Source: Tetrahymena thermophila SB210 (Eukaryota; Ciliophora; Oligohymenophorea; Hymenostomatida; Tetrahymenidae). Taken from it: 64,000 nucleotides of DNA. Made by a program: the position numbers and the translations under genes. The notes beneath the pieces were generated by a model, which was given only the letters and a program-made list of their open reading frames with translations, did no database searches and was not told the DNA's origin. Shown piece by piece: positions 30,136 to 61,910 of the stretch. The stretch lies in assembly GCF_000189635.1 (NCBI RefSeq), contig NW_002476350.1, positions 187,255-251,254 on the forward strand, written 5' to 3'. Each line of letters opens with the position of its first letter. Position 1 is the first letter of the stretch.

Positions 30136-33100
30136 TCATATTTATTTTTTAACTTAGTAGAATTATGGTACACTCTGGTGATGATCAATTCTTCTCATAC
30201 TGTTAAATAACTCTTCTTAGGATAAAATTTAATTTTCAACCATTTAATTCTAGCTATCTTTGCTACCTTAAATTATAGAATCACCATGATTATTTTTAAC
30301 CAAATCCTAAGATTATTTTTATTAATTTTAAATCTGATTTTATTATTTCTAATCTTCGTTTTTATTTATAAATTTCATTTGATTTGAATTATCTTGTGTG
30401 CAAGAGGATTCATTTTTCTTAGAATCTTTAAATGATTAATATCTGCTCTTTATTTGGTTTTTAAATTACTAAATAATTTTAGAAGTGCTTTCATTCTTTT
30501 AGACTTCTTAAATTTATTTTTATATTGCAAGACTCTCAGTCAATTTACTAAATATTTCTTCCTTTTTTGCTTTATTCATTTTTAAAATGGTCAGTTCAGT
30601 TTTCCAATCAAAATACCTGCTATACTTTGGATTAAGCTAATTTATTTATAAAATATTAAAAATTACATATTTAATATAACTAAATTACCATAATGTCATA
30701 GCTTAAGCTTCCACTGACAGGTTTTTCTGAATAATCTAAATCTAAGTTTTCATCAAGTTTGTTTTTGATAACTTAATCAATATCTTTTTTCTTATTTATA
30801 AATCTTTATTTTCTAATATCAGAAACTTCTTTTTCTATATAATATTCTTAAAGCAATGAAAGCTCTTGCAACTATCTTATTGAGTAAACTAAAATAAAAT
30901 GATTTAAATAGTTTGAAAAAAAAACTATCTTACTTTGATATATAGATTGGGAGTCAAATGGTTAATTCTTGATTTGTGAATCTTCATTTAATTTAACTTT
31001 ACGTTAAATTTTATATTTACTGATATAGCTCAGGTACTTTAAGAATCTTTTAATTCTTCTTCTTAAATAGTAGCAAGAAAATAAAACTGCATAAGTGATG
31101 GTGCTTATTTTCATAAAATATGAACCTTATGATTAAAAGTTTTAAGGTGCAAAAGTAGGTATCCGATTAATTTTATTTTACTAATTAAATTAAGAGTAAT
31201 TCAAATCTGTGTTTTACAGATATACTTCAAAAAATATTCTTTTGTTCACATAAGTCATTACCAAAAATAGAAGGCTTGTTAGAATTGCATAAAAATTGAA
31301 AGCCATGAAAGCATTAGATATTTTACTGTTGTACTAATAAGATTCTTTCCTGCAATGCCTAAATACTTTATTTAATTTTTTTAATAATTATTAGCTAAAA
31401 ATAGGATTTACTGTAATATTTTTCAAAGTATATGTGAAATGTCAAGAACAAAAAAGTGATAAAATAGAAAAACGGCATTCCAAATCCAAAGAACATAGAT
31501 ACACATAAATATTCAAAAACATCAGAGTAAGAATTAGCAATTTCAAACTCAGGACCTTAATGCATATTTATGTAATCAAAATTTGTTTTTTAAAAAGTCT
31601 CTGTTTTTTTCTTTTTGCATTTATGATCTATGAGTAATCGAATCCTATTTTTTAAAATAAATATAAATTAATTTTGCTTAAAAATAAACTTAAGATGATT
31701 GATTACATTTTAAATAACAGAAATAATTATTTTAAAAAAATAAAAATCATTTTTAAAAAATTTAATTAAAAAAGTGAATAAATAAATAAATAATTTACTT
31801 TCTGTAAATTAAATAGATGATATTGTAAATAATGTAAAGGGCTATTTTTATGAGATAGTGAATGCAAAAGAACATTCCTACATTCCTAAACCACTCAGGT
31901 GAAAAATCAATATAGTTTCCAAAATTACTGTTGCTTTAACTATTCTCTCCATTTAAAGAGAATTTATTTACAACGTAGTACATTCCAATCTAATTAAAAA
32001 AATGTTTAATTAAAATAATTTGCTTAAATTAATCTTACGTTTGTTCCTATTTTAAATAAAGATAATAGCTAAAAAAGAGAAATATCTTTAGATATTCTAT
32101 CTGATACTTTATAACTTTTGACACACAACTTAATTAATTTAGTTGATAACACGCATGATATATTGACTATCAGCATTATTAAGAAAGGATATAATTTTTT
32201 TAATTATGTCGCCTTGTAAATTTGTAAACAGGTTTCATTATTTGAAAACTCATTGTTTGAACAAAAACAATACACTTAATTTGGATCTAGAGGTTACTAA
32301 AGTAGTACACTTTCATTATCTGACCTGTGTCCAAAGCAATTTAAAGTAGGAGAAAAAATATTGAATATTTGCCTTAAAACATCTCCATACTTTATTAGTA
32401 AAATTGCTATTTATAATTCAATATATTAGTAAAATTAATCCTTAAAGAATCAATCTTACTTATTAAGCTCAAAATAAGAGGTATCAAGAGAGTAACTATT
32501 AAGCATAATGTTGACATAAGTTATCCAACAAAGAGATTTTACCAAATTAATACATCTGGACTTGCAGATTTGAGTATGAACAAAACATTCTACTTCAAGT
32601 GAAATTTTGAAAATTAAAATTTTTTTGAGCAGCATTATATAAAAAGATATAGAAATTATTTTAAGTAATACCCAACCATGGTTTCTTACATAATAAAAAT
32701 TGCTCTATCTCGCTAATGCTTTGCCTCAAATGTTACAAAAGCTTTAGATGAATGTGAATATTTATTAAATTCGATTTTACTAATTTATTCTTTAAGTTTC
32801 TCGATATTTGATTTCTTTTTAATAATATCCATTAAGTCATTATAGCATTCTTTCTTTGTTTTAGGATTGTTAACAAAATCAAATATTTTTCTTAGCTAAT
32901 CTATTTATATTTTATAGATTCCATTTCCTAATCCCAACTTATCAGGATCATATTTGTTTATAAATCTAATCACTTTATTTTTCATACTTTCTTAATACTT
33001 TTTAAGAACTAAGTCTCTTTAAATAAAACATTCAGGAAGAGCCATTTTGACATCAATTATTTTAATTTCTTTTTATGAGTTTTCTTAAGTGTATTCGTTC

Positions 33101-35046
33101 AAAGTCTATTGATTTATGTAGTTTATATTTAATTAATTTCTTGTCAATTTGTGTAATATTTTGTGACTTTCAATTTACGCAATAAATTTTGATCAAAATT
33201 AATTTTAAGTAAAATTTTTCTAATTGAAATTTTAGAAGTGTAAGTAAGCTGACTTAAAACTAATTAAGATAATTTTAATTCATTGAATAAGAAAATTAAT
33301 TTCAAATTACTCTTTAGAGATGCAACCAAAGTAGTTCTTGAGTCCAATTAAAGTGCATCTTAGGTATGCTTTAAATTTCTAGTGTATACTTTTAAACCAG
33401 TGTAATTTTCTTTTTTATTCTATTCTTAATCCTCTTATTGATAAACAACTGGCTGTTATTTAATAATATTTAAATTTTTGAAACTATAATTAATTAATTA
33501 ATACTGAATGAAGAATAACAAACAAAGTATTATTCCAAAAGTCTATAAAAGAATAACAGCAACAGATGCTTGATAGTTAGATGTAGGGATACCAAAAATA
33601 TCCACATTTTAATTTCTACAAGGAGCAGAAATGAACATATTTTACTGTTTAAGATTATTCACACAACTATCATTAAGATCAAACATATTTAAAACCTCAA
33701 TTGAGCTTATTTAGCAAGCATTTTTATTTTAGCATCTACTGTAAATGTTTTTAAATGTTGTTTAAGTATTTATATCACTTTTCAAGCAGTCAACTTCAAC
33801 TTTTTCTAATTATATGAACTCACAACCGTAAAAGCTTGAAGTATCTTAAGGACTTGCTATAATAAATAATATTTATTGGTAAATTAAGAAATATATTTCC
33901 GAATTAAAATACATACTTAATCCTATTTGAGCAAATTAAAAGTCTAAAACTCCTTGTGAGCATTTTAAATCTATTGTCTAATCTAATGATTTATTCACAA
34001 TCAGCATGTCACATTGCCAAAATTCTTAATAATTTTTATAGATGAAAAGCTTAAAGTTAACAATTATATACTAATTTAATAGTTTTACTGTAGCCAATAC
34101 CTGCTATTGTAGGGTAAAGTAAGAACACTTAGAAGTCATTTATGTATTCGTATTTTTAGTCTTTACTAACTTTAATTTTTGGAAAAGTATTTTTGAGATT
34201 AAATATTTTTGAAAAATTTAAAGTAAATAAAATTACTTTTTGCACAAATATAAAATGAAGGTAAACCCAAGATAAATAATATAAAAAATAAGCACAAGAA
34301 GCTTTTGATTTGATTGAGATACAATAGACTTGAAAGTGAAAGCTAATCTGTATCGTTATTTTTTGATCTCCAGCAAAAAAAGTTAGTTTCTATTTTAGCT
34401 GAGCAAATCGATTCTAAAAGTCTATACCTTCTTTATTTATTTAACTTTGGGTCGTTTTTTAAGTAATGCTTCTATTTAATCTATTTATTACATTCATTTA
34501 AGTCAACTTTCAATTGCTACTAAGATAAATCTACATCTAGCTATAAAAATAATTAGGTTCTAATCAGCTAAATTCTAAAAATCATACATCTAATTACTAA
34601 AATGCTTCTCCCTAGTAAGTCATACTTCTCAGTTTAAATTGGTCAAGGGATTAAACTCTTTATATCTCATGAAGTATATCCCTGTGTGTTTACAAACTTT
34701 TAGAAGTTAAATTTACATGTAAATAAAAATAATTAATTATTTACTTCTCCTTCTCAGGTTATAGCTAAAAATTCAAATCATTTCCATATTATATTGCACC
34801 TTTTAGAGTATCATTTTCTTAAAGATTTCTGCTTTGAGATTTACACTTTTCTTCCTCTAAATGTATTTCAATCTTATCAGATTCCTGTACAGTAAATTAC
34901 TTGTGCGTATTCCCTATTTATTTAAAGTAAATATATGTGTTGTATGCTAATAAAAATAATAATGAGAGAATACTTATTTCAGAATAGCATGACTCTTAAT
35001 CTTCTTCATCTATACATTTTTGTCTTAGTTTAACTAAAATAGCCAT
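30136..35046 (-). CDS. OSCA/TMEM63/CSC1-like multi-pass channel, array copy 1
   Basis: Probable mechano- or osmosensitive cation channel of the OSCA/TMEM63 group; function inferred. A dozen or so exons. Start MAILVKLRQKCIDEED at 35046. In order: a Gln-rich cytosolic N-terminus; CWRSKNNDTDQLSL; a first hydrophobic helix (FLCLFFILFILGLPSFYICA); a Cys-rich segment with at least ten cysteines (WQCDMLIV, SFYGCEFIQLEKVEVDC, ISAPCRNQNVDIFG) that is probably extracellular; a second helix; a cytosolic loop containing KAFVTFEAKHQRDRA; and the family motif ASPDVLIWQNL. Several helices follow, then NYIDFSPEWFRNVG, then GPEFEIANSYSDVF with FGFGMPFFY, and further helices. The Gln-rich cytosolic tail ends RRIDHHQSVPQF plus a few residues before TGA. 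Rough size 1,200 residues. I traced most exons and saw no broken frame. Closest in detail to copy 5. Confidence 0.75.
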
Positions 35047-36115
35047 TCACTGACTGTATTCACTTTGACTTTTAATTAATTAATTAAATATCTATTTATT
35101 AATTGAATTATTAGTTAATTAATTAATCAATTAATATATTCTTAAATAAAATATATACTTTATTTAATTTCGAAATACATTATTAAATAATCAGGTAGGT
35201 ATATTTATTTCCTTGCAATATTCTAGCTAATTCGATATCATTAGTATTCATTAAAATATAATTTACTGCTATCTGATTTTTAAAGTAATTCTTCACTAAT
35301 TTCATTTATATTATTGTCATATGAACTATGATAAAATATTCCACAATTTATTTCTATATTTATCTATTTTAAAAACACAAACAAATCTATTTTGCATACA
35401 GATACATTTAAATAATTTTTATTCTAATTATTATATATGGATTTTCAATAATAACTAATTACTATTCTTTTTATATTTCAATTTTTTTAATAATTTATTT
35501 AGGAAGCTTTTCTATAAATATGCAATTTTTTATAAATTATTTGAAAAAAATATGATAAAGAAACTAATAAAATAATAAATATCAAATTTAATACTGTGGT
35601 TTCTCAAAACCTATAACTTACTTTTAATCATCAAAAATTTACTATATTTGAAATTAAAAATGAAGATTTAAAAAATTACTGAAGATGAGATAAGTGGTTA
35701 CAATAGATAGATAAATAAATAAATATTAAATTCAAAATCATTTTACTTTTTATACAAAATTCTCATTTATTTTCATATATATTTGTTTCCTCGCTGCTGC
35801 TTTGATTTTTCTGCTTTAATAGGTTTAGATACTTTATAAATTAATATTATGCGTACTAAAATTATGGACCTTTATTTTGTGGAATTTTTTCATTTATAAT
35901 ATGTGAATTTGCTATAAAGGTTGATAAAAAAATTAAAAAATAGAAAGTGTAAAATTAGCTTAAAATCATAAAAATTAAATGAAATATCACCATCTGTATG
36001 TATGTACCTACATAGTTCGTGATATTATAATTACAGGATTAGCAATATTAATGAAGATATTTGTAGTTAATTTGTGAAAGATATTAATATATTTATAATT
36101 TTTTATTAAATAAAA
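35047..36115. other. Intergenic spacer between array copies 1 and 2
   Basis: AT-rich spacer. No lysozyme remnant and no recognised feature; a somewhat less A/T stretch near 35,780-35,920 has no convincing reading. Confidence 0.45.
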
Positions 36116-39100
36116 TCAATTAAGTTTATTTAAATTTATCTAATTAATATTAAGCAAACTCATATTTTTAATAGTATTTTAATCGAATTATAGGACAGTA
36201 TGGTGATGATCAATTTTTTTTATACTTTTAAACAGATTTTCATAAGACAAAATTTCATTATCAATAATTTCATTTTGGATGTCTTTAATAGCTTAAATTG
36301 TTAAGTCATCTTCATTATAATTTTTAACTTGATTCTATTATTTTTCTTATTACTATGTTTCATTTTATTACTTTTCATCTTCACTTTTACTTACTAAGTA
36401 TATTCTATTTTAATTATTTTCTGTTTAATTGGTTATTTCACTTTTTTTAGAGTCTTTAAAAGATTAAAATCTATTATTTATTTGTCTTTTTAATTACTAA
36501 ATAATTTTACAAGCACTTTAATTATTTTAGACTACTTAAATTTATTTTTTTACAGCAACACTTTGAGTTAATTAACTACAAATTTCTTCTTTCCTTGCTT
36601 TATTCACTTTAAAAATAATCAAGTCAGTTTTCCAATCGAAATACCTGCTATAATTTTGATTCAACTAATTTATTAATTTAATTTAATTTATAAAAATAAA
36701 ATTTATAATAAAATTAAATTACCATAATATCATAGTTTAAACATCCACTCACAGGTTTTTCTGAATAATCTAAATCTAAGTTTTCACCAAGTTTAATTTC
36801 TTTTACTAAATCAATTTCTTTTTTCTTATCTATAAATCTTTACTTTCTAATATCAGAAACCTCTTTTTCAATATAATATTCTTAAAGTAATGAAAGTTCT
36901 TGTAACTATCTTATTGAATAAACTAAAATAAAATTAAATTATTTAAATAGCCTGATGATTAATTGATTTAGTTACATTAATAGAGAGGTTTATAATTAAA
37001 AGGTAGTTTTTTTATTTGAGAGTCATCATTAGATTTAGCCTTTCGTTTAGCATCATATTTGCTAATGTAGCTTAGGTATTGAAAGAAAGTTTTTATTTTT
37101 TCTCTAAAATAAAAGCAAAAAAATAAAATTGTATAAGTGTAGGTGCTTATTTTTATAAAATATGAGCCTTATGATTAGAAGCCTTAATCGTTAAAAACAG
37201 GAATCTGATTAGTTTAATCTTATGATTTAAATTAAGAGTTATCCAAATCAGTATTTTCTAAATATATCTCATAAAATATTCTTTTATTGAGATACGTCAA
37301 AGTTAAAAATAGAAGGCCAGTTAAAATAGCATAAAATTAAAACACCATAAAATTTTCAGATATTTAACTGTTGTATTAATATGATTCTTTCCTGCAATGC
37401 CTAAATACTAATATTAAATTATTTTTATAATTAATTATAACTCAAAAAAAGAATTTACTGTAATATTTTTCAAAGCCTATGTGAAACACCAAGAACAGAA
37501 ATGTAATGAAATAGAAAAATGGCATTCCAAATCCTAAAATCATTGATACAAATATATATTCGAAAACTTCAGAGTAAGAACAAGCAATTTAAAATTCAGG
37601 TCCTTAATGCAGGTGTATATAATCAAAATTTGTTTTTTAATATGTTTGAGCTTTTTTCTTTTAGCACTTATGATCTATCAGCAATCTAATCCTATTTATT
37701 TTTCAAAATAAAAAGAAAGAAATTAATTTATTAATTATTAAAATTTAAAGCAAAAAATAATTAATAATTTTTAAAATAAATAAATAAAAATGTTTTAGAA
37801 TTTAAAAAATTAGATAAAAAACCTACTTTCGATAGATTAATGAGGTCATATTTTAAATAATATAAAGGGATATTCTGATAAGATAGTGGATACAAAAGAA
37901 CATTCCTACATTCCTGTACCATTCAGGTGAAAAATCTACATAATTGCCAAAACCATTTTTATCTTAATTATTATTTTTATTTGCTGGTAATTTATTTACA
38001 AAGTAATATATTCCCAACTATTTATAAAATAAAAAAACTTTTTAAATATTAATTAATAATTTGCTTAAATTTTACATTTGTTAGTATTTTAATAAAAACT
38101 AATAACTAAAACAGGACATTATCTTTATTAATTTTATTCTATAGATTTGATTTTTTGACACACAATTTTACTAATTTGACCACTAAAATGTGCGCTATAT
38201 TGACTATCAATATTATAAAAAAAGGATATAACTTTTTTAATTAAGTCACTTAGTATATTTAGAAACAGTTTTAATCATCTGAAAATGCATTGTTTGAACA
38301 AAAACAATACACCTAGTTTAGATCTAAAGGCTATTAAAATAATACATTTTAATTAGCAGACCTGTATTAATAGCAATTTATTGTTGGAGAAATCATTTTA
38401 AAAAATATTCTAAGATTATCCGCATATCTTATTATTATAACAGCTATTTATTTATGATAGAATATATAATTGTTAAATAATTTTCTTTGAATTAAAAAAT
38501 ATTACCAAATAAGAGGAAAATAAATGGTACCAAGAAATAAACAAATAAACGTAATAATTAAGTGAATAATCCAACAAAAAGGTTTTTCCAAATTAATACA
38601 TCCGGACTTACAGGTTTGCTTATTATCAAGACATTCTATTTCAAATGAAATTTAGAAAATTAAAACTTTTTTGAGCAGCATTATATGAAAAAATATAGAA
38701 ACGACTTTAAGACATATCCCACCATTGTTTCTTGTATTATAAAAAATGCTCTATCGCGCTAGTTCTTAGTTTCAAATGTTACGAAAGCTTTTGATGGATG
38801 TGAATATTTATCAAATTCTATTTTACTAATTTATTCTTTAAGTTTCTCAATTTTTTATTTTTTATCAATGATATCCATTAAATCTTTATAACATTTTTTC
38901 TTTGTTTTAGGATTGCTAATAATATCAAATATTTTTCTCAATAAATCTATCTATATTTTATTGATTCCTTACCCTAATTTCAAGCTATCAGGATCGTATT
39001 CATTTATGAATCTAATAACTTTATTTTCTATCCTCTCTGTGTATTTTTTAAGAATTAAGTCTCTTTAAATTAAGCATTCAGGAAGAGCCATTTAGATGTC

Positions 39101-41001
39101 TATTATTTTAATTTCTTTTTCTTATTTTTTTTATGTATATTCATTCAAACCCTATTTTTTTAATATTTTTAATTCATTTTTTCTAATTGAGTATTGTCAA
39201 TTTCTATTTAAGACAGACAATAAATTTTGATAAAAAATTAATTATATGTATAATTTTTCTTAAATTACTCTCTATAGATGCAACCAGAGTAGTTCTTGAG
39301 TCCAATTAAAGTGCATCTTAGGTATATTTTAGATTTCTAGAGTAAACTTTTAAACCATTGTAATTTTCTTTTTGATTCTATTCTTAATCCTCTTATTGAT
39401 AAACAACTGGCTGTTATTTAATAATAATTCGAAATTTTAGAGTAGAATTGAATAAATAGTAAATACTGAATGAAGAAGAGCAAACATAGTATTATTCCAA
39501 AAGTCTGTAAAAGAATAACTGCAACAGATGCTTAATAGTTAGATGTAGGAATACCAAAAATATCCACATTTTAATTTCTACAAGGAACAGAGATGAACAT
39601 ATTTTGTTATTAAATATTGTTATCACATTATGCATCAACTTTAAAGAAGGTTAAAATCTCATCCGAGTTTATCTAGCAAATGTTTTTATACTAGCATCTA
39701 CTATAAATATTTTTAAATGATGTTTAATTATTTACATCACTTTTCAAGCAGTCAACTTAAACTTTTTACAATTCGATAAATTCACAACCATAAATACTCT
39801 AAGTATCTTATGGAATTGCTTTTATAATATTTATTTATTTGTAAATATGAAATATATTTCAGAAATAGAATACATACTTAATCCTATTTGAACATATTAA
39901 AAGTCTAAAACTCCTTAAGAGCATTTTAAATCTATTGTCTAATCTAATGTTTTATTCATGATAAACATATCACATTACCAAAACTCTTTTTATTTTATAT
40001 CAAAAGTAGAAGTTAAAAATTTTATAAAAAACTATCAGTTTTACTGTAACCAATACCAGCTATTGTTGGATAAAGAAAGGGCGATTAGAAATCATTAATA
40101 TATTCATAATTTAGATCTTTACTAACTTTAGTTATTAGAAAATTATTTTTGAGAATAAATAATTTAAAAAATTTTCCAATAAAATAAATTAATTACTTTT
40201 TGCACAAATATAAAATGAAGGTAAACTCAAAATAAAAAGTAGAAAAAATAAGCATAAGAAGCTTTTGATTTGATTAAGATACAATAGACTTGAAAGTGAA
40301 AGCTAATCAGTATCGTTATTTTTTGATCTCCAGCAAAAAAAATTAGTTTCTATTTTAGTTGAACATATGGATTCTAAAAGTCTATATCTTCTTTATTTAT
40401 TTAACTTTAGGTCGCTCTTTAAGTAGTGCTTCTATTTAATCTATTTATTACATTCTTTTATATCAACTTTCAATTGCTACTATGATAAATGTATATCTAT
40501 CTTTAAAAATAATTTAGCTCCAATTTGCTAACTTCTAAAAATCATACATCTAATTACTAAAATGCATCTCCTTAGTCATTAATGTTTTTCAGCTTATCTT
40601 GATATAGTGATTAAGCTCTATGTATCCCATTAAGTATATCTCTTTAATTTTGCAGACTTTTTAAAAGTTAATTTTACTTTAAAATGTAAATGATTTACTA
40701 TTTACTTCTCCTTTTCAGGTTATAGCTAAAAATTCAAACAATTTTCTTATTTTATATTGCTACTGAGACTAACATTTTATTAGTGATTTATGCCATTAGA
40801 CTTAAATTATTAACTCTCTAAATGTATTTCAATCTAATCAGATTCCTATATAATCAATTACTTGTGCTTATTACCTATTTGTTAAAATAAAATGTTTTGT
40901 ATGATAAGTTACTTAATAAAATACTTACTTAATTCAGAACAGCATGATACTTAATCTTCTACATCTATACATTTTGGCTTTAACTTAACAAAAAAAGCCA
41001 T
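36116..41001 (-). CDS. OSCA/TMEM63/CSC1-like multi-pass channel, array copy 2
   Basis: Paralogue of copy 1 with the same exon order. Start MAFFVKLKPKCIDVED at 41001. Stop is TGA at 36116-36118. The exon encoding the second segment (KSLQNQRDILNGI...QQLD) ends at a GTATGATTTT donor shared by all copies, which fixed the frame in copy 1. The last exon reads through without a break (begins NYSRYFDWKTDLIIF) to the conserved tail KKIDHHHTVLQF, then about 15 further residues. The WYP-like DFSPEW equivalent, the GPEF segment (38-37 kb) and the Cys-rich segment are present. It belongs to the inner group with copies 3 and 4: all three share details that differ from copies 1 and 5, for example in the exon near 37,540. 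A decayed lysozyme gene lies just upstream of it. Confidence 0.75.
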
Positions 41002-41821
41002 TAATTATCTCTTACTTTTTAACTATTTGTTATTTAATTAATCAATTAATTACTTCTTAAATAATATCCTTTATTTATTTATTTTAGAAAAAAAAAAATT
41101 AAAAAACAATGAGGCATACTTCCTTGTATTATTTTAGCAAAAATAGTATTTATTAAAAAGTTAATTACTTCTATCTGATTTTTTATGTAATTTACCATTA
41201 AATTAATTTATAATATTGTTTGTTTTTGTAAGTTTGATAAAATATTCCACAATCAATTTTGTAGTATTTATTATTTGTTATATTAAATTTATTTTAATTT
41301 TTAAGTGGAAATAAATAAATAAACTATACAAAATGATACATTTAAATAATTTCTGTTTTGTAGTCTTTACTAATTGTTATTTATTTCATTTTAGAAATGA
41401 AAAAATATAAAGAGAAAGTAAACAATTATTTATCGTAGTTCCTTAAAAACTGTAACTATCAAACTAGAAATGAGTTAAAAGTTGCAAAAAAAAATTTAGT
41501 TTAATTTTTTTACACATAACAAATCTTGAGCTTAGAAAGTTTGGAGAGATTTGATTTATTTTGGATTTTAATTAATTAAATTCAATTTTTTACAACAATA
41601 GAATAATTTTAAAACTGTTGAGTAAGTTTTAAATAAATTGTTTGTTCTTTTTTTATACAAATTAATTTAAAATTTTAAAAATCTATTAAAATCTAATTGG
41701 GTTAATTTATTTTTTTGACACAAGAAATTAATTATTATTAAATTGCATTTTTATTTTGTGTTTAATGATAAAAATGATTTTAAATAATTAGAATTTACAT
41801 ATAAAATAATTTTATATTGTA
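41002..41821. other. Spacer upstream of array copy 2, shared with copy 4
   Basis: AT-rich. From about 41,400 to 41,820 it resembles the DNA upstream of copy 4 (about 54,360-54,908), including TTTAATTTTTTTACACATAA. This shared stretch leads directly into the lysozyme remnant here and into the intact lysozyme gene there. Confidence 0.6.
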
Positions 41822-42038
41822 GAACTATATTATTACAGGATTTGCTAATCCACCAAAAGGAGTAAAATTATTAAAGTTTGTTTGATTATCCCATCTACAT
41901 TAGCAATCAAGTATTAGAAGAAGCTTTATAAGCTTTAATTTTCTAGGCAAGATAATTATAATATTATCTAGCAATAGAATATGTTTCAATAACTATAAAA
42001 TCGTAGCCTGCTAAATTTATACATCCAAAGCAATTAAC
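41822..42038 (-). pseudogene. Decayed GH25 lysozyme remnant
   Basis: Three blocks match the intact GH25 gene at 54,909-55,613 in order, with two internal stretches deleted. Block 1 (about 41,822-41,910) matches the part encoding the WDNQTNF/PFGGFANP region. Block 2 (about 41,910-41,935) matches the region encoding SFFQYLIAN. Block 3 (about 41,935-42,038) matches the region encoding NCFGCTKQSGYDFVVIEIYSS. The parts coding for the catalytic DIEN motif and the signal peptide are missing. Similarity stops at about 42,038, where the copy 3/4 duplication boundary begins. Confidence 0.85.
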
Positions 42039-42041
42039 TTC

Positions 42042-45000
42042 ACGTTTGTTTTATATATTGATAAGTAATATATATTATATATTTTTTATTTAGTAAGCAA
42101 TAATTTTAATTAAAATATATTAATAAAGAGTTTATTTAAAACTTGATGTAAATTATTTTTAATAATTTTAACAAAATTAATTCTTACATTTTATACTTAT
42201 TTACAAAATTGATTGTTTATAATTTTAATAAATCAGAGATAAATTTTAATTTGCTTTACTCACATAAAAGATTTTGTTATAGTGATTACTATAATTATTG
42301 AGAATTTAAAAATAAATAAGAAAATTATATTTATTAATTTATTTATCTGGATAGTAAAGTTTTATTTTTTTAAGTAAATTTGAAAAATTTATTAATTAAG
42401 ATATTTATTTATAATTTTCATTTTTTACAATCAATTAGGTTTATTTACATTTAATTCATTAGCCTAAAGCAAAGTCAAATTTTTTTAAAAAAATTAATAG
42501 AATTATGGGACAGTATTGTGATGATCGATTCTTTTTATACTATTAACTAGATCTTCTGAAGATAATATTTAAATATCAATTATTTCATTTTGGATATCTT
42601 TAATACCTTAAAATGTTAAATCCCCATTATGATTTTTAATCTAATTCTATTATTTTTCTTATTATTGCTTATCATTTTCACTCTTACTAACTAATTTTAT
42701 TTGATTTAAATTATCTTCTGTATAATTGGTTGTTTCATTTTTTTTAGAATCTTTAAAAGATTAATATCTACTATTTATTTGTCTTTTGAATTACTAAATA
42801 ACTCGAAAAGCGCTCTATTTATTCTAGACTCCTTAAATTTATTTTTTTACTGCAACACTTTGAGTTAATTTACTACATATTTCTTCTTTTTTTACTTTAT
42901 TCATTTTAAAAATAATCAAGTCAGTTTTCCAATCGAAATACCTGCTATAATTTGGGTTGACCTAAGTTAATCATTAAAATTATAAAATAAAATTTATATT
43001 ATAATTAAATTACCATAATATCATAACTTAAACATCCACTCACAGGTTTTTCTGAATAATCTAAATCTAAGTTTTCATCAAGTTTGCTTTTTATTACTTA
43101 GTCAATTTCTTTTTTCTTATTTATAAATCTTTATTTTCTTATATCAGAAACCTCTTTTTCAATATAATATTCTTAAAGTTATGAAAGCTCTTGCAACTAT
43201 CTTATTGAATAAACTAAAATAAAATAAAATTATTGAAATAGCATGATGATTTATTGATTAATTTAGTTACGTTGATAGAGAGGTTTATAGTTAAAAGGTA
43301 ATTTTTTTATTTAAGAGTCATTATTGAAAGCCTTACGCTTAGCATCATATTTGCTAATGTAGCTTAGGTATTAATACATACTTATAATTTTTTCTCTAAA
43401 ATAAAAGCATAGAAATAAAATTAAATAAGTGTAAGTGCTTATTTTTATAAAATATGAGCCTTCTGGTTAGAAGTTCTAAGGGTTAAAAATAGGAATTGCA
43501 TTATCTTAATCTTATTAGTCATTAACTTAAGAGTTATTAGCATCAGTATTTTCTAAATATATCTCATAAAATATTCTTTTATTGAGAAATGTCAAAGATA
43601 AAAATAGAAGGCTAGCTAAAATAGCATAAAATTAATACACCATGAAATTTTAAGAGATTTAACTATTGTACTAATATGATTCTTTCCTACAATGCCTAAA
43701 TACTAATATTAAAAGGTTTTTATAATTAATTATAACTCAAAAAAATGTACTGTAATATTTTTCAAAGTATATGTGAAACACCAAGAAAAGAAATGTAATG
43801 AAATAGAAAAACGGTATTCCAAATCCTAATACCATTGTAACGAATATATATTCGAAAACTTCAGAGTAAGAGCAAGCAATTTAAAATTCAGGTCCTTAAT
43901 GGAGGTGTATATAATCAAAATTTGTTTTTTAATAAGTCTGAGCTTTTTTCTTTTTGCACTTATGATCTATGTGCAATCTAATCCTATTTTTCAAAATAAA
44001 AACAATGAATTATTGATGATATTTAAAATAAATAAAAAGATTTTACAATTAAAAATAAATAAATTACTTTCTATAAATTATTTAGGTAATGTTTTAAATA
44101 ATATAAAGACATATTTTTATAAGATAGTGAATACAAAAGAACATTCCAACATTCCTGTACCACTCAGGTGAAAAATCTACATAATTACCAAAACTATTAT
44201 TTTAAGTTTTACCTTAGTTTAATGGTAATTTATTTATCAAGTAATACAATACTACCTATTTAAAAAAACTATTAAATTAAAATAATTTGCTTAAATTTTA
44301 CATTATTTAGTATTTTGATAAAAACTAATAACTAAAACAGCAGAACATCTTTTTCAATTTTATTCTATAGCTTTAATTTTTTGACACAATATTTAGTTAA
44401 TTTGACTAATAAGACCTGCGCTATGTTTAATATAAGCATTATAAAAAAAGGATATAACTTTTTCAATTAAGCCATTTAGAAAATTTATAAACAAATTTAT
44501 TCATCTGAAAATGCATTGGTTGAACAAAAACAATACACTTAGTCTAAATCTTAAGGATCTTAAGATAATACACTTTAATTAACTGATCTGTATTCATAGC
44601 AATTTACTGTTGGAGAAATCATATTAAACACTTTTCTAAGATTATCTCCTTATTTGATTATTAAAATCACTATTTATATTTTAACAATATATTTATGAAA
44701 TTAATTTTTGTTGTATCAATTAATATTACTGAATATGATGAAAATTAATAGTACCAAGGTATATATTAGGGAATGTAATGATTAACTGATTATTCCAACA
44801 AAGAGGTTTTTCCAAATTAATACATCTGGACTTACAGGTTTAACTATTATCAAGACATTCTATTTCAAATGAAATTTAGAAAATTAAAACTTTTTGGAGC
44901 AGCATTATATAAAAAAATATAGAAATTATTTTATATATGCTCCAACCATTGTTTCTTATATTATAAAAAATGCTCTATCGCGCTAGTTCTTAGTTTCAAA

Positions 45001-48708: not shown

Positions 48709-51700
48709 TTTTATATATTGATAAGTATGAAATAATATATTTTATATATTTATTTATCTTGTAAGCAGTCAATTAAATTTAAATATATAAATAAAGAGTT
48801 TTTTGAAAACTAAATACAAATTATTTTTAACAATTTTAACAAAATTAATTCTTACATTTTATTCTTATTTACATTGATTATCATTTAAAAAAATTAGAGA
48901 TAAAATTTAATTTACTTTACTCACACAAAAGATTTTGTTATGGTGATTATTAAAATTATCTGAGAATTTAAAAATAAATTAGAAAATTATATTTATTAAT
49001 GTATTTATCAGGATAGTAAAGTTATTATATTTTTTTGTAGTAAAATTGAAAAAGTTATTAATTAAGATATTTATTTATAATTTTCATTTTGTATAATCAA
49101 TTAGGTTTATTTACATTTAATTCATTAGCCTAAAGCAAAGTCATATTTTTTTAAAAAGTTTAATAGAATTATGGAACAGTATGGTGATGATCGATTCTTT
49201 TTATACTATTAACTAGATCTTCTTGAGATAAAATTTAAATATCAATTATTTCATTTTGGATATCTTTAATACCTTAAAATGTTAAATCGCCACTATAATT
49301 ATTAATCTAACTCTATTATTTTTCTTATTATTATATTTCATTTTATTAATTTTCATCTTCACTTTTACTAACTAATTTTATTCGATTTAAATTATCTTCT
49401 GTGTAATTGGTTGTTTCATTTTTTTTAGAATCTTTAAAAGATTAATATCTACTATTTATTTGTCTTTTGAATTACTAAATAACACTAAAATCGTTCTATT
49501 TATTTTAGACTACTTAAATTTATTTTTTTACAGCACCACTTTGAGTTAATTTACTACATATTTCTTCTTTTTTTGCTTTATTCATTTTAAAAATAATCAA
49601 TTCAGTTTTCCAATCGAAATACCTGCTATAATTTGGGTTGACCTAAGTTAATAATTAAATTTATAAAATAAAATAAAATTTATATTATAATTAAATTACC
49701 ATAATATCATAACTTAAACATCCACTCACAGGTTTTTCGGAATAATCTAAATCTAAGCTTTCTTCAAGTTTGCTTTTTATTACTTAGTCAATTTCTTTTT
49801 TCTTATTTATAAATCTTTATTTTCTTATATCAGAAACCTCTTTTTCAATATAATATTCTTAAAGTTATGAAAGCTCTTGCAACTATCTTATTGAATAAAC
49901 TAAAATAAAATAAAATTATTGAAATAGCATGATGATTTATTGATTAATTTAGTTACGTTGATAGAGAGGTTTATAGTTAAAAGGTAATTTTTTTATTTGA
50001 GAGTCATTATTGAAAGCCTTGCGCTTAGCATCATATTTGCTAATGTAGCTTAGGTATTCATACATACTTATAATTCTTTCTCTAAAATAAAAGCATAGAA
50101 ATAAAATTATATAAGTGTATGTGCTTATTTATATAAAATATGAGCCTTCTGATTAGAGGCTCTAAGGGTTAAAAATAGGAATTGCATTATCTTAATCTTA
50201 TTAGTCATTAACTTAAGAGTTATTAGCTTCAGTATTTTCTAAATATATCTCATAAAATATTCTTTTATTGAGAAATGTCAAAGATAAAAATAGAAGGCTA
50301 GCTAATATAGCATAAAATTAATACACCATGAAATTTTAAGAGATTTAACTGTTGTACTAATATGATTCTTTCCTGCAATGCCTAAATACTGATATTAAAT
50401 GGTTTTTATATTAATAAACTCAATAAAAAATGTACTTTAATATTTTTCAAAGTATATGTGAAACACCAAGAAAAGAAATGTAATGAAATAGAAAAATGGT
50501 ATTCCAAATCCTAATACCATTGTAACGAATATATATTCGAAAACTTCAGAGTAAGAGCAAGCAATTTAAAATTCAGGTCCTTAATGGAGGTGTATATAAT
50601 CAAAATTTGTTTTTTAATAAGTCTGAGCTTTTTTCTTTTTGCACTTATGATCTATGTGCAATCTAATCCTATTTTACAAAATAATAAGAATGAAAGAAAT
50701 AAATTATTTAAATTTAAAGCATAATATTATTGATGGTATTTAAAATAAATAAAAGCATTTAAAATTAAAAATAAATAAATTACTTTCGATAAATTATTTA
50801 GGTAATGTTTTAAATAAAATAAAAGGATATTTTTATAAGATAGTGAATGCAAAAGAACATTCCAACATTCCTGTACCACTCAGGTGAAAAATTTACATAA
50901 TTACCATAACCGTTATTTTAAATTTTATCTTTCTATAAAGGAGTTTTATTTATAAAGTAATACAATGCTACCTATTTAAAAAAATCTATTAAATTAAAAT
51001 AATTTGCTTAAATTTTACATTATTTAGAATTTTGATAAAAACTAATAACCAAAACAGAAGAACATCTTTTTCAATTTTATTTTATAGCTTGAATTTTTTG
51101 ACACAGTATTTAATGTATTAGATCAATAAAATTTGCACTATATTGACTATCAGCATTATAATAAAAGGTAAATACTTTTTCAATTAAGTCACTTAATATA
51201 TTTATAAACAATTTTCATCATCTGAAAATGCATTGTTTGAACAAAAACAATACACTTAGTTTAAATCTTAAGGATCTTAAAATAATACACTTTAATTAAC
51301 TGATCTGTATTCATAGCAATTTATTGTTGGAGAAATCATATTAAACACTTTTTTAAGATTATCTCCATATCTGATTATAGAAAATGCTTTTTATATTTTA
51401 ATAATATATTTATGAAATTAATCTTTGTTGTATCAATTAATATTACTGAATATGATGAAAATTAATAGTACCAAGAAATATATTAGGGAATGTAATAATG
51501 AAGTGATTATTCCAAAAAAGAGGTTTTTCCAAATTAATACATCTGGACTTACAGGTTTAACTATTATCAAGACATTCTATTTCAAATGAAATTTAGAAAA
51601 TTAAAACTTTTTGGAGCAGAATTATATAAAAAAATATAGAAATTATTTTATATATGCTCCAACTATTGTTTCTTATATTATAAAAAATGCTCTATCGCGC

Positions 51701-54465
51701 TAGTTCTTAGTTTCAAATGTTACAAAAGCTTTCGATGGATGTGAATATTTATCTAATTCTATTTTATTAATTTGTTCTTTAAGTTTCTCAATTTTTTATT
51801 TGCTATTCACAATATCCATTAAATCTTTATAACATTTTTTCTTTGTTTTAGGATTGTTAACAAAATCAAATATTTTTCTCAACTAATCTATTTATATTCT
51901 ATTGATTCCTTACCCTAATTTCAAGTTATCCATATCATATTAATTTATGAATCTAATAATTTTATTTTCTATTTTTTCTGTTTATTTTTTAAGAATTAAG
52001 TCTCTCTAAATTAAACATTCAGGAAGAACCATTTAGATGTCTATTATTTTAATTTATTATTCTTATTTTTATTAAGTGTATTCATTTAAACCCTTTTATT
52101 TTAATATTTTTAATTTGTTTCTTGATAATTGTGTATTAAATAAAATATTATCAATTTCTATTAAACGCAATAAATAAATTTTGAGTAAAAATTTTATTTA
52201 ATTACTCTTTAGAGATGCAACCAGAGCAGTTCTTGAGTCCAATTAAAATGCATTTTAGGTATATTTTAAACTTCTAGAGTATACTTTTAAACTACTGTAA
52301 TTTTATTTTTTGTTCTTTTCCTAATCCTCTTATTGATAAAGCACTGGCTGTTATTTAATAATATTTAGATATGACAATAAATTAAATAATTAATACTGAA
52401 AGAAGAATAGCAAATAAAGTATTATTCCAAATGTCTGTAGAAGAATAATTGTAACAGATGCATGATAATTAGATATAGGAATACCAAAAATATCAACATT
52501 TTAATTTCTACAAGGAACAGAGATGAACATATTTTGTTATTAAATATTATTATCGCAATCTGCATCATCTTTAAAGAAGGTTAAAATCTCATTCGAGCTT
52601 ATCTAGCAAGCATTTTTATACTAGCATCTATTATAAATGTTATTATAGGATGTAGAATTATTTATATCACTTTTCAAACAATCTACTTAAACTTTTTACA
52701 ATTCGATAAATTCACATCCTTAAATACTCTAGGTGTCATCAGGATTAGCTTTAATAATAAATATTTATTTGTAAATATCGAATATATTACAAAAATATAA
52801 TACATACTTAATCCTATTTGAGCAAACTGTAAGTCTAAAATACCTTAAGAGCACTTTAAATCAATTGTCTAATCTGATGTTTTATTAGCAATAAACATGT
52901 CACATTACCAAAACTCTTTTTATTTAAATCAAAAGTAGAAGATAAATATTGTATAAGAATTTAATAGTTTTACTGTAACCGATACCTGCTATTGTTGGGT
53001 AAAGAAAGAACGATTAGAAATCATTAATATATTCATAATGTAGGTCTTTACTAACTTTAATTATAAGAAAATTATTTTTGAGAATCAGTAATTTTATCAA
53101 TATTGAAATAAAATAAATTACTTTTTGCACAAATATAAAATGTTGGTAAACTCAAAATAAAAAGTATGAAAAATAAGCATAGTAAGTTTTTTATTTGGTT
53201 GAGATACAATAGACTTTAAAGTGAAAGCTAATCAGTATCGTTATTTTTTGATCTCCAGCAAAAGAAATTAGTTTCTATTTTAGCTGAACAAATAGACTCT
53301 AAAAGTTTATATCTTCTTTATTTATTTAACTTTGGGTCGCTCTTTAAGTAGTGCTTCTATTTAATCTATTTATTACATTCTTATATGTCAACCTTCAATT
53401 GCTACTTTGATAAGTCAATATCTAGCTTTAAAAATCATTTAATTCTAATTTGCTAAATTCTAAAAATCATACATCTAATTACTAAGACATATCTCCCTAG
53501 TCATTAATGTTTTTCTGATTATCTTGATATTAAAGTGATTAAACTCTATGCGTCCCATTAAGCATATCATTTTAATTTTGCATACTTTTTAAAAGTTAAT
53601 ATTTCTTTAAAATATAAATTTTCTATGAATTACTTCTCTTTTTCAGATTGAATCTAAGAGTTCAAATAACTTTCTTATTTTACCATTCCATTGAAAGTGT
53701 TATTTTATTGATGATTTATGCCATTAGAATTAAATGATTAACTATCTAATTGTATTTCAATCTAATCAGAATCCTATATAGTTAATTACTTGTGGGTATT
53801 TCCTATTTGTTTAAAATAAATGTTTTGCATTATATGATAAGAAAATTAATTCATCATATACTTAATTCAGAACAGCATGAATCTTAATCTTCTAAATCAA
53901 TACATTTTTGTTTTAACTTAACTAAAATAGCCATTAATTAATTATCTCTTAATTTTTAGTTATTTATTATTTAATTAGTTAATCAATCAATTAATAAATC
54001 TAAAATAATGTCCTTAATTTAATTTAGGAACAAAAAATTAAAAAACAAGCAAGCAAGCGTACTTCTTTGTATTATTTTAGCAAAAAAGATAATATTTAAT
54101 AAAAGTAAATTACTTCTATTTAATTTTTTAAAGTAATTTACCATTTAATTCATAAATATTAAGTTATTTGTAAGTATGATTAAATATTCCACTATTTTGT
54201 TGTATTATTTATTTTTTTTTATATTAAATTTATTTTAATTATTATATGCAAATAGATTAATTTTACAAAAAGATATTTTTAAATAATTTTCCATCTAATT
54301 TGGAAGGGTTACCCATTGCTATTGTTGAGCATATTATATAAATATTACATTTTTTATAAAATTATTTAGACAAAAATATAAAAGAGAAGCTAAAAATAAA
54401 GTAAAAAATTACTTATCGTAGAACCTTATACACTGTAAGTAAAAAACTAAAAATTAGTCAAAAGT
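48709..54465. repeat. Segmental duplication, unit 2 (contains array copy 4)
   Basis: Partner of the segment at 42,042-47,818. Beyond 54,465 the sequence continues into DNA shared with the upstream flank of copy 2 and then the intact lysozyme gene, whereas the partner continues into unique sequence. Confidence 0.8.
49097..53934 (-). CDS. OSCA/TMEM63/CSC1-like multi-pass channel, array copy 4
   Basis: Recent duplicate of copy 3. Start MAILVKLKQKCIDLED at 53934 and end KRIDHHHTVPQF plus a short tail, with TGA at 49097-49099. The family motif reads VSPDVLIWKNLFFG in the exon near 51,550 and follows CSKKFQFSKFHLKQNVLIIVK. The Cys-rich segment and all hydrophobic exons correspond to those of copies 1 and 2. 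Upstream, after about 970 bp of spacer, lies the lysozyme gene on the same strand. The same cautions on exon edges apply as for copy 3. Confidence 0.74.
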
Positions 54466-54908: not shown

Positions 54909-55613
54909 TCATAACTTTAGGAAAGCCCTACTTGAAAAGTTACTAAAATAATTGTTTTATGTGTCTGGCCTCCAATCAACATCTGTGTTAGTGCAGCATA
55001 TTTGTACATCATTGTAGAACTACTTCATTACAGGATTTGCGAATCCACCAAAAGGAGTAAAGTCATTAAAATTAGTTTGATTATCCCATCTAGGATACCA
55101 GAGCTGCAAATCTGAAAAAACAGTAGTATTGCACATAATAGGCCAATAGTGCTAGGAAGCATACAACCCAATTCTATCTTTACTAATGTAATTTTCAGTA
55201 GTATTTATCATAGCTTATAAGAATTCAATGTTTTGTGTGCAATTTGCAAAAAACAAATTTTCATTCTCAATATCAAGCCAAACATTATTAAATAATGACA
55301 TAGTTTCATTAGCGATCAAGTATTAGAAGAAACTATTTATTTGTTCAGCAGGATCTCTAGTTGTGTCAGGGAAAATATACAGATCGACTTCTAAGGAAGC
55401 GTTATAAGCTGATTTAATATTCTAAGCAAGATAATTGTTAAATTATTTAGCAGATGAATATATTTCAATAACCACAAAATCGTAGCCAGATTACTTTGTA
55501 CATCCAAAGCAATTTACTTCTCCTTCCCACACACTTATGTCATATCCAAGCTTAGCATTTACTACTAAAAGCAAAACGAAAATAAAAAATCCCTTTTACA
55601 AATAATTACTCAT
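54909..55613 (-). CDS. Secreted GH25-type lysozyme, 234 aa, intronless
   Basis: Peptidoglycan-cleaving muramidase of glycoside hydrolase family 25; a bacterivorous ciliate could use it in phagosomes or secrete it. A single open frame of 235 codons from ATG 55613 to TGA 54909. Residues 1-20 (KGFFIFVLLLVVNA) form a signal peptide. Then GYDISVWEGEVNCFGC carries the first active-site Asp (Asp25). NVWLDIENEN carries the D.E pair (Asp114, Glu116). IGLYASQHYW, LWYPRWDN and FTPFGGFANPVMKQF are typical of the second half of the GH25 barrel. Six cysteines, all after the signal peptide, could form disulphides. It is intronless and sits between multi-exon channel genes. A deleted copy exists at 41,822-42,038. 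Confidence 0.88.
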
Positions 55614-56881: not shown

Positions 56882-59800
56882 TCATATTTGTTCATTTGTT
56901 TAGATTTATCTCACATTTAATTAATTTACATTCGTATTTCTAACTTAATAGAACTATGGCAAAGTTTAATGATGATCGACTCTACTTGAATAAAGCTGTT
57001 CTTAAGATAAAATTTAATCTTCTAGAATTATATTCTAACTATCTTTGCTAATTTAAATTATCGAGTCGCTTTTAGCACTTTTTGCAATATTCATCTATTC
57101 TTATTTCTATTCGATTTAATTTTATTATTTCTAATCTTCAATTTTAAAAACAAATTTGATTTGATTTGAATTATCTTGTGTGTAAGTTGTTTCATTTTTC
57201 TTTAAATCTTTAAACGACTAATACCTGCTCTTTATTTGCTTTTTGTATTACTAAATAAGCTTACATGCGCTTTCTTTATTTTAGATTCCTTAAATCTATT
57301 TTTTTATTGCTAGACTTTCAGTTAATTTACTAAATATTTCTTCCTTTTTTGCTTTGTTCATTTTAAAAATACTTAGTTCAGTTTTCCAATCAAAATACCT
57401 GCTACAATTTTGGTTGAGCTAATTTAATAATTAAATTAGTAAAATAAAATAATCTATTTAATTAAGTTACTATAATATCATAATTTAAGCTTCCACTTAC
57501 AGGCTTTTCTGAATAATCTAAATCTAAATTTTCATCAAGTTTCTGTTTTATTACTTAGTCAATATCTTTTTTCTTATTAATAAATCTTTATTTTCTGATA
57601 TCAGAAACTTCTCTTTCTGTATAATAGTCTTGAAGCAATGAAAGCTCTTTTAACTATCTTATTGAATAAACTAAAAAAAATTATTTTAATAGTTTAAAAG
57701 TTTAAAGATCAATTTCTTACGTTAATAAAGAGATTTGTAGTCAAAAGGGTATTTCTAGATTCGATAATCACAATTTTGAACCTTGCGTTTAATCTTATAC
57801 TTACTGATATAGCTGAGATATTTAAAGAAGCTTTTAATTTTTTATCTAAAATAATAGCATACAAATAAAATTGCATAAGTGTATGTGCTTATTTTCATAA
57901 AGTATGAGCCTTTTGATTAGAAGTTTTAAGGGGTAAAAGTAGGAAGTTGGTTCACTTTATTTTATTCATTAAATTATGAGTTATACAGATCTGTGTTTTG
58001 CAAATATATTTCAAAAAATATTCTCTTATTCACATATGTCATTGCCAAAAATAGAAAGCTTGTAAGAATGGCATAAAAATAAAACGACATGAAAGCATTA
58101 GAGATTTTACTGTTGTACTGATAGGATTCTTTTCTACAATGCCTAAAAACTTTATTAAATTATGTTAACAAAATTAAAAGTAAAAATTATTTATTTAATT
58201 AACTAATTAATTTCTTACTGTAATATTTCTCAAAGCACAAGTGTAAAATCAAAAACAAAAAAGTGATGAAATAGAAAAATGGCATTCCAAATCCAAAAAA
58301 CATAGATACACATAAATATTCTAAAACTTGAGAGTAAGAATTAGCAATTTCGAATTCAGGCCCTTAATGCATTTTTATGTAGTCAAAGTTAGTTTTTTAG
58401 AAGGTAATATTTTTTTTCTTTTTGCATTTACGGTCTATGAGTAGTCTAACTCTATTATTTATTTATTTAATGTTAAAATAGAAATAGATTTATAAAAATA
58501 ATGTAAATCATATTTGAATATTTTATATTTTATAAATTTAGCTTTGAAATTATAGATTAGAAGTTAATTAATTTATTTGTTTGTTTGTAAATAATCTATT
58601 ATAAAGAAAGGAAGAAAATTAAAAAGAAATATTTACTTTCTATAAACTAAATAAACGATATTCTCAATAAGATAAAGCGCTATTTTAATAAGGTAATATA
58701 TAACAAAGAACATTCCAACATTTCTGTACCATTCAGGCGAAAAATCAATATAATTTCCAAAAGTTGCTTGAATTTAATCGTTATTTTTAAAAGGAAATTT
58801 GTTCAATATGTAATAAATTCCAATCTAATTTATAAAATTATTTTAGTCAATATATTAATTATAAAGCTTAAATTTACGTTTATTCCAATTTTAAACAATG
58901 AGAGAATCTAAAACAGGACAATTTCTTTAGAAATTTTATCAGAAACTGTGTATTTATTCACAAAGTATTTCGCTAATTTAACTGAAAGTATACACAAAAT
59001 ATTGACTATAAGCATTATAAAATAAGGGAATAATCTTTTTAATTTTGCTGCTTCGTATATCATTGAGCAGCTATCTACCTCTGGAATAGAGTTGTTTGAG
59101 CAAAAACATAGTACTTGGTTCGGATCTTAGGGATGTTTATTGAGTATGCTTTTATCATCAAATCTGTATTCATAACAATTAATTGTAGGAGAAAGCAAAA
59201 GAAATAATGTTCTGATAAAATCTCCAAAGTTTATTAGAAAAAATCCTGTTTTTTATTTAAAACTTTAAAAATTAATTAACTTTTCAATTAATAGTTCTTA
59301 CCCAAAGCACATAGGATAATAGGTATTATAAGATACATCACTAACTAAAAAGTTGATAAAAACTCTCCAACAAATACATTTTACCAAATTAGTATATCTG
59401 GGCTTACAGTCTTTTATACTAATAAAACATTTTACCTCAAATGAAACTTAGAAAATTAATACTTTTTTGAAAAGCATTATATAAATATATATAGAAATTA
59501 TTTTATAAAATATCCAACTAACGTTTCCTACATAATTAAAATTGCCCTATCTCGCTAGTGCTTTGTCTCAAATGTTACAAAAGCTTTCGAAGAGTGCTTA
59601 TATTTATTGTATTCAATTTTATTTATTTATTCTTTAATTTTCTCTATCTTAGATTTTTTTTCAATAATGTTTAGTAGATCTTTATAGCATTTCTGTTTAA
59701 TTTTTGGGTCTAATACCGAATCAAATATTTTTCTTAGTTAATCAATTTATATTATTTTGATTCCATTACCATAATCTGAGTTATTCGGATCATAACTATT

Positions 59801-61910
59801 TATAAATCTTATTACTTTGTTTTTCATACTTTCATAGTGTTTCTTCATAATTAAGTCTCTTTTAATTATACATTCAGGAAGAGCCATTTAAATATCAATT
59901 ATTTTAATTTCTCTTTAGGATTTGTTTTCATTGTATTCATCTAGATTCTATTAATTAATTAATTAATTAATTGATTAATAATTTAATAAAAACATTTAAT
60001 TATTTTCTTTTTAAACAGAGTAACAAATTATACTTATAAATCTTACTAATAAATTTTGATCAAATTTGATTTAAATTAATTGTTAAGATTTATTATTGTT
60101 TTAATGTAAGCAAAAAAAAAATATCAAATTAATTAAAATCCATAATCAATAGAAACAATAAAACAAACAAATTAGATATTTAATTTACTTTTTAAAGGTG
60201 TAACCAGAGTAGTTCTTAAGTCCAGTTAAAGTGCATTTTAGGTATATTTTCAATCTCTATTGAGAATTTTTAAATCATTGTAATTTTGTTTTTTATTCTT
60301 TTCTTAATTTTATTATTGACATACAATTGGCTGTTTTTATAAAAATAAATTTAGATATTTCAATGCACTAAAAAATAAAAAATATACTGAATGAAGAAAA
60401 TCAAGCAAATTATGATTCCAATTGTTTATAAAAGAACAACTGCAATAGATGCTTGATAGTTAGTTGTAGGAATTCCAAAAATATCTACATTTTAATTTCT
60501 GCATGGAACTGAAATGAAAATGTTTTATGACTAAACACTAGAATCACAGCCATTTTTAACATCAAACAAGTTTAAAAGTTCATTTGAGTTTATTTTACAT
60601 GTACTTTTATTCTAACATCTACTATAAATGTTTTTAAAAGAAACCAAAGTGCTTAAATCACTTTTTAAGCATCCAATTTCAATTTTCTATAATTCAATAA
60701 ATTCACAGCCATAAAAACTCGGAGTATCTTAAAGACTAGCTAATATTTAATATAATTTTGATTTTAAATAAATAAATTAAAAAAGATTTTAAAAATTACT
60801 TAATCCTATTTGAGCAAATTAAAAATCTAAAGTACCATATGGGCATTTTAAATCAGCAGTTTAACTTAAAGTCTTATTCCCTGTAATCATGTCACATTAC
60901 CAAAATTCTTGATGTTTTATTGATAAAAATGAATAAGTAAAGTATTTAATATAAATTTGATAATTTACTATAGCCAATTCCTGCTATTGTAGGGTAAAGT
61001 AAGAAGGCTTAAAAGTCATTTATGTATTCATAGTTTAGGCCTTTACTAACTTATTGTTTAACCAAAAAGGGATTTTCAAAATTATAATTTTAATTTTCTG
61101 TAAATTAATTTACTTCTCGAACAAATATAAAATGAAGGCAAGCCTAAAATAAACAGTAGAAAAAATAAACATATGAAACTCTTTATTTGATTGAGGTACA
61201 ATAAACTTGAAAGGGAAAGCTAATCTGTGTCGTTATTTTTAGATCTCCAGCAAAAAAAATTTGTTTCTATTTTAGTTTAATAAATTGACTCAAAAAGCTT
61301 ATATCTTCTTTATTTATTTAACTTTGGATCATTTCTCAAGTAGTATTTCTGTTTTATCTGTTTATTACATTCTTATATATCAACTTTCAATTGTTGCTGT
61401 GATAAATCTATATTTAACTTTAAAAAATAATTAACAAATGCGCATATATATGCCAAAAAATTCTACATCTAATTATTAATAAATATCTCCCTATTCAGTA
61501 GTTCTCTGCAAGTTATTTTCATTGAGTGATTAAATTCTTTGTATTTCATCAAATATATCTTTTTGTGTTTGCTATCTTTAGAAAGTAAAAATTAAATTGA
61601 AAGTAAATGTTTTAATACTTACTACTATGAATTATTATCAAGTTCTATATTCAGAACATTTCCTTATTATAAAGTATCTATACATTTGTCATTTTATTTA
61701 GGATTTCTTCCTTCAGATTTGAGTTATACACAATCAAGATGTATTTCTATATGATCAGAATTCAATTCAGATTTTTAATCTTTTATTAAAATAAGTTTAT
61801 TTTTTAGAAGGATAGTTATTGAAATAAATGTACTTACTGCTTTCAGATTAATAAGAATTTTGATCCTCTTCATCTATATATTTTTATTTTAGCTTTACTA
61901 AAGCAGTCAT
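56882..61910 (-). CDS. OSCA/TMEM63/CSC1-like multi-pass channel, array copy 5
   Basis: The most upstream copy in the direction of transcription. Start MTALVKLKQKYIDEED at 61910 and end SSRVDHHQTLPQF plus about 18 residues, with TGA at 56882-56884. Exon order and splice sites follow copy 1. The exon near 58,300, which encodes the GPEF segment, shares wording with copy 1 that copies 2-4 lack, so 1 and 5 are probably the older outer pair. The conserved C-terminal (I/V)DHH.T.PQF motif is kept in all five copies, although the preceding Gln-rich tail varies freely. That suggests a functional tail signal. Confidence 0.74.

Follow-up and report, generated by a model that had tools for sequence, protein, structure and literature searches.

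Tetrahymena thermophila tandem array of OSCA/TMEM63-related genes with a predicted SUEL/rhamnose-binding-lectin-like domain in the first loop

What kind of membrane protein is encoded by a row of large, similar genes in the ciliate Tetrahymena thermophila SB210, and what is the cysteine-rich segment that each carries between its first two predicted transmembrane helices (TMs)? The genes lie in a stretch of 64,000 nucleotides (the window), positions 187255-251254 of contig NW_002476350.1 (assembly label C187), in an assembly of 101.0 Mb and 445 contigs. From the same assembly, 232 residues of telomerase reverse transcriptase agree exactly with the T. thermophila chain 6d6v_A, save for an insert of 21 residues, presumably an intron left unspliced. 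The guanine plus cytosine content of the window is 19-26%, and long open frames are present under the ciliate code only. The genes, all on the minus strand, form a tandem array that has at least ten copies and runs beyond the window. As judged from profile comparisons, their membrane core is, at the level of the branch, a divergent OSCA/TMEM63-related member of the TMEM16/TMC/OSCA superfamily. The cysteine-rich domain best fits, by sequence and by modelled structure, the fold of SUEL/rhamnose-binding lectins (RBL), as found in the latrophilin lectin domain and Plasmodium P113.

Genes were placed by tblastn followed by a splice-aware model, with a consensus from in-house splice scoring and comparison across copies; the models are predictions. 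The copies in the window are:

56882..61910, minus strand: copy A, 1308 amino acids, 14 introns
49097..53934, minus strand: copy B, 1317 amino acids, 14 introns
42431..47235, minus strand: copy C, 1312 amino acids, 14 introns
36116..41001, minus strand: copy D, 1318 amino acids, 14 introns
30136..35046, minus strand: copy E, 1302 amino acids, 14 introns

All five predicted models read without interruption from ATG to TGA in the ciliate code, and all introns are of the GT-AG type with positions and phases that match across copies. Protein identity ranges from 62% (A-B) to 90% (B-C), and the whole-gene ratio of nonsynonymous to synonymous substitution rates (dN/dS) is 0.20-0.40. Intact frames, common introns, this level of identity and dN/dS below 1 make chance open reading frames or pseudogenes very unlikely, and both were rejected. 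The DNA similarity reaches into the spacers (B and C are 91% identical over 5.9 kb). The motifs SPD(V/I)LIW.N, (D/N)FSPEW and GPEF occur in 5/5 copies. Five more divergent copies, F-J, lie on the same contig and strand outside the window, at about 256-287 kb of the contig; they were found when segments of copy E were searched against the assembly, and copy counts are lower bounds. An earlier sequence-only reading had described an array of five large, intact-looking paralogues in one orientation over 30136-61910, each with SPDVLIW.NL, DFSPEW-type and GPEF segments. The intact frames, free of frameshifts in all five, and the segments, with V/I and D/N variation, were borne out; the array itself proved larger, with at least ten copies when F-J are included.

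The same reading had called the proteins OSCA/TMEM63-like, and this holds at branch level through intermediate ciliate paralogues; the window proteins by themselves do not reveal it. In Pfam, full-length copy E had no match at E<=10; its core matched no OSCA model (RSN1_7TM or PHM7_cyt), and neither form of it matched Anoctamin. A profile of the five copies searched against the PDB returned two myosin coiled-coil rows only and no OSCA/TMEM63. The relatives elsewhere in the assembly (loci C31, C60, C65, C67, C138, C220 and C341) and copies F-J were modelled by a script with hand-set splice weights, and their ends are unreliable; the C31 model was trimmed at 1058 amino acids, the remainder resembling a neighbouring gene. 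Two of the loci, C60 and C67, match Pfam PHM7_cyt, the OSCA cytosolic domain, above cutoff. When a profile of all ten array copies was compared by hhalign, Prob was 100 to C31, 99.9 to C220, C341 and C138, and 99.0 to the canonical ciliate OSCA proteins C60/C67. The score of the last comparison was 160.8, against at most 47.5 for 25 hydropathy-keeping shuffles and 23.1 for the reversed alignment.

The kinship extends to known structures when the intermediates are included. When E, I, C31, C220 and C341 were combined into a profile, it matched 13 PDB chains, and OSCA or TMEM63 accounted for 11 of these (best E 2.8e-4). After F, C60 and C67 were added (eight rows), TMEM63A/B appeared at 1.6e-8, ERD4 at 0.005 and Anoctamin-6 at 0.008. 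Without C220 and C341 (E, F, I and C31 only), TMEM63B dropped to E 2.9 at ranks 4-6 of 8. The PDB titles "Calcium permeable stress-gated cation channel 1" and "CSC1-like protein 2" are taken here to mean TMEM63A/B. Since the kinship is visible only through intermediate ciliate paralogues, the proteins are called an OSCA/TMEM63-related branch, not Pfam-defined members. The C220 locus (C220:337500-346000) matches Pfam Anoctamin (E 9.5e-8) more strongly than PHM7_cyt (0.0053) or RSN1_7TM (0.0062), and may be an intermediate between TMEM16 and OSCA. A phmmer search of the PDB with C65 and C220 gave no match at E<=1.

Judged by hydropathy only, one TM precedes the loop domain and there are about 10 TMs in total. 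OSCA/TMEM63 proteins have 11, including TM0, and an extracellular N-terminus. One exon of copy E holds the linker that follows TM2:

32460..33105, minus strand: cytosolic TM2-TM3 linker (AFVTF, SPDVLIWQNL) and the start of TM3

The predicted structure of this exon (mean predicted local distance difference test, pLDDT, 57.6; predicted template-modelling score, pTM, 0.38) was too poor for use, and no OSCA was among the best 50 of its 160 matches. Further along, the region of the TM3-TM4 loop (residues 631-860) evolves faster than the loop domain described below (dN/dS 0.22-0.71). This TM3-TM4 loop has cysteines of its own: three of them (CxC...C) do not vary across the alignment of A-E, I, C31, C220 and C341, and are thus present also in relatives that have no SUEL-like domain.

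The segment between TM1 and TM2 is a domain of 127 residues. Its positions in the window are:

60468..60908, minus strand: SUEL-like eight-cysteine domain of copy A, two exons with one 60-base intron inside
52477..52916, minus strand: SUEL-like eight-cysteine domain of copy B, two exons
45773..46212, minus strand: SUEL-like eight-cysteine domain of copy C, two exons
39547..39986, minus strand: SUEL-like eight-cysteine domain of copy D, two exons
33585..34025, minus strand: SUEL-like eight-cysteine domain of copy E, two exons with one 60-base intron inside

Eight cysteines, in the SUEL order, are invariant in 10/10 array copies; the "ten or more" counted earlier between the first two helices is corrected to exactly eight in each of A-E. 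Their spacing is 16-25-11-17-5-16-14 in A-E and 17-25-11-11-5-15/17-14 in F-J, compared with 8-19-13-12-5-12-12 in CSL3 domain 2, the C5-x5-C6 interval being common to CSL3 and the array. The domain evolves under purifying selection (dN/dS 0.10-0.25), with no signal of positive selection. Each domain has 2 or 3 N-glycosylation sequons, the loop is net negative and a basic stretch follows TM2, features that fit an outward-facing domain; the residues ahead of TM1 are neutral, which is uninformative on topology.

The assignment to the SUEL/RBL fold draws on the cysteine order, on hhalign scores compared with cysteine-keeping shuffles, on weak Pfam and PDB matches and on structure matches of low Z value. 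Pfam PF02140 (SUEL_Lectin) was weakly matched by 5/9 array domains scanned (B, E, F, H and I of A, B and D-J; E 0.0034-0.29), or 5/10 with C31, which was scanned too and had no match. Even the best match (E 0.0034; 18.2 bits) stayed below the gathering score of 31.4, and in domain B two chance-level Pfam matches were stronger than SUEL_Lectin. A search of the genome with PF02140 gave 0 matches, but the control genomes also gave 0, hence this is no evidence of absence. In the PDB search with a profile of 11 domains, CSL2 (E 0.012) and CSL3 (0.12) were the top two of eight matches and the lectin 5h4s was last (2.2). Against a nine-row SUEL reference profile, hhalign scored 34.6 (Prob 82) for the ten array copies, 32.0 when C31 was added and 29.5 (Prob 59) with both C31 and C138. 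Controls for this last set reached at most 17.5 for shuffles that kept the cysteine columns (150 trials), 15.9 for full shuffles (150) and 13.9 for the reversal.

For structure prediction, the copy E domain was translated through its 60-base intron and aligned with the domain of A and with exon pieces of B-D; the resulting model has a mean pLDDT of 64.6 and a pTM of 0.60. Foldseek listed 29 rows for it, none at E<=0.001 and none an animal lectin; row 1 was Plasmodium P113 (6z2l, E 0.21) and row 5 a RIPR entry. Both proteins contain an RBL fold according to the available extracts of their papers (PMC7482062, PMC10794152). In VIA-align, with 98 chains compared, 11/15 entries listed have the SUEL/RBL fold: nine SUEL-type domains, P113 (6z2l, at row 7) and RIPR. 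All have Z<=5.0, values of a modelled structure that, taken alone, would not convince. Among the nine, rice beta-galactosidase 5iaz was presumed to be SUEL-type, in part on the strength of a weak match in a search. A separate extracellular module of ligand-binding type, as proposed in the sequence-only reading, is thus supported as a predicted SUEL/RBL-like domain with a putative ligand and a putative role as a sensor.

If the domain has a lectin fold, does it bind sugar? The sugar-binding motifs of RBL domains are given as YGR and DPC-x-GTYKY in the available parts of two sources (PMC3269628, PMC10817417). Neither YGR nor the GTYKY segment of the DPC motif occurs in any of the 11 rows of the domain alignment, so rhamnose binding is not expected. 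P113 likewise has no GTY motif and hence is considered unlikely to be a lectin in the accessible text by its authors (PMC7482062). By this analogy, a protein or other ligand appears likelier than rhamnose for the ciliate domain.

Loci C31 and C138 also carry a loop domain similar to that of the array, and the eight-cysteine domain was not seen in the gene models of C220, C341, C60 and C67. The domains of C31 and C138 have lost exactly C4 and C7, which form a bonded pair in the RBL disulfide pattern 1-3, 2-8, 4-7, 5-6 as printed in the available portion of the source (PMC3269628). As a random pair of cysteines is a bonded pair in 4/28 cases, the joint loss is modest support only. In a tree of the core with 16 rows, the 12 that have the domain (ten array copies, C31 and C138) form one side of a branch with support 93/92, recovered in 94% of 200 bootstrap trees. 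Sequence comparison of the cores is therefore consistent with a single gain of the domain; C138, C60 and C67 have long branches, and deep placement is unsure. Among the matches listed from the open-licence literature, no title or abstract opening described an OSCA/TMEM63 core joined to a SUEL/lectin domain.

How might such a protein work? The analysis leans, with reserve, towards an OSCA/TMEM63-type channel core with an outward, disulfide-rich SUEL/RBL-fold domain that binds an outside partner and so tethers the channel or biases its gating. The core would consist of TM1, TM2, the cytosolic linker and TM3 to about TM10, and the domain would sit in the loop between TM1 and TM2, outside the cell. 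Membrane tension is the gating stimulus usually given for OSCA/TMEM63 channels. By kinship the core is most likely a tension- or osmotically gated cation channel, presumably of the surface or vacuole membrane, and might perhaps scramble lipids as relatives can. The domain would face outward and could bind a protein or glycoconjugate, be it from the cell coat, from prey or from a mate; such binding might tether the channel or bias gating, by analogy with latrophilin lectin domains, which have protein partners. Duplication would then have diversified cores and ectodomains. A wider proposal is doubtful, though possible: that these proteins are receptors as well as channels, their lectin-fold ectodomain, gained once in the ciliate line, linking contact with protein or glycan outside the cell to a mechanically gated core of OSCA/TMEM63 type. 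The array, amplified to ten or more tandem genes, would then be a protist family of contact- or chemo-mechanosensors. A family with a conserved outer lectin-fold domain would allow ligand or tether input to an OSCA/TMEM63 core to be tested, and gene removal is routine in Tetrahymena.

Other explanations were weighed against this coupling of channel and outer ligand. The proteins might be TMEM16-like scramblases or Ca2+-activated channels, not mechanosensitive, with the loop domain as a structural cap. The Anoctamin match of C220, the appearance of Anoctamin-6 with the eight-row profile, and the count of about 10 TMs, one of them ahead of the loop, speak for such a function, but OSCA/TMEM63 ranks above anoctamins in both the five-row and eight-row PDB searches and the PHM7_cyt-type TM2-TM3 linker ties the core to OSCA, so that it is judged quite unlikely. 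The eight-cysteine segment might instead be a disulfide-rich ciliate domain that has no kinship with SUEL and resembles it only in the pattern of its cysteines; this seems improbable, the real alignment scoring 29.5 where shuffles that keep the cysteine columns stop at 17.5, and lectins heading both the PDB profile list and the VIA list. An ordinary paralogue expansion is a further candidate, in which the domain is a passive glycosylated shield that binds nothing, and the number of copies follows from dosage or from tandem-repeat dynamics. The youth of copies such as B and C and the lack of any sign of positive selection agree with it. However, the eight cysteines and the domain sequence are kept under purifying selection in ten copies, and the domain is kept, minus two cysteines, at two other loci; a passive shield is therefore held to be unlikely.

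Two features lie among the channel genes:

54960..55613, minus strand: GH25 lysozyme-like gene between A and B (Pfam scan, E 5.6e-13)
41816..42041, minus strand: remnants of a second, decayed GH25 gene, located between C and D (DNA self-similarity comparison)

The duplication unit may once have contained both genes, and the GH25 gene between A and B is probably a part of it. Elsewhere in the window are:

12227-13306, plus strand: one open frame with a 3HCDH_N domain and a partly overlapping Pyr_redox_2 match, the latter just below cutoff, an odd combination
19522-20599: direct repeats of about 0.3-0.5 kb, 68-82% identical
26512-27674, plus strand: WD40 repeats and a PFU domain (PLAA-like), followed directly by a tRNA gene at 27602-27674

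Compared with OSCA/TMEM63 (CSC1), the ciliate proteins have in common the long cytosolic TM2-TM3 linker, AFVTF and P-D/x-x-x-W-x-N segments, the GPxF...P helix region and profile matches to TMEM63B, ERD4/OSCA and TMEM63A. They differ in their size of about 1300 amino acids, long tails, the single TM before the extracellular loop, the eight-cysteine ectodomain in that first loop, the cysteine-bearing TM3-TM4 loop and the lack of a direct Pfam match (copy E). Anoctamins, of the same superfamily, likewise have about 10 TMs and are matched in Pfam by paralogue C220, whereas the TM2-TM3 linker is of OSCA type and OSCA/TMEM63 outranks them in PDB profile searches. With the SUEL/RBL domains of CSL3 and latrophilin the ciliate domain shares eight cysteines in order, C5-x5-C6, and profile and VIA matches, but not YGR or GTYKY, and its C1-C2 and C2-C3 spacings are longer. 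Plasmodium P113 and RIPR are alveolate proteins with RBL-fold domains, alike by structure match, P113 also without the GTY sugar loop; unlike the ciliate proteins they are not channels. In the extracts available, their structures suggest alveolate reuse of the RBL fold for protein contacts, and its use in the ciliate channels may be an older one.
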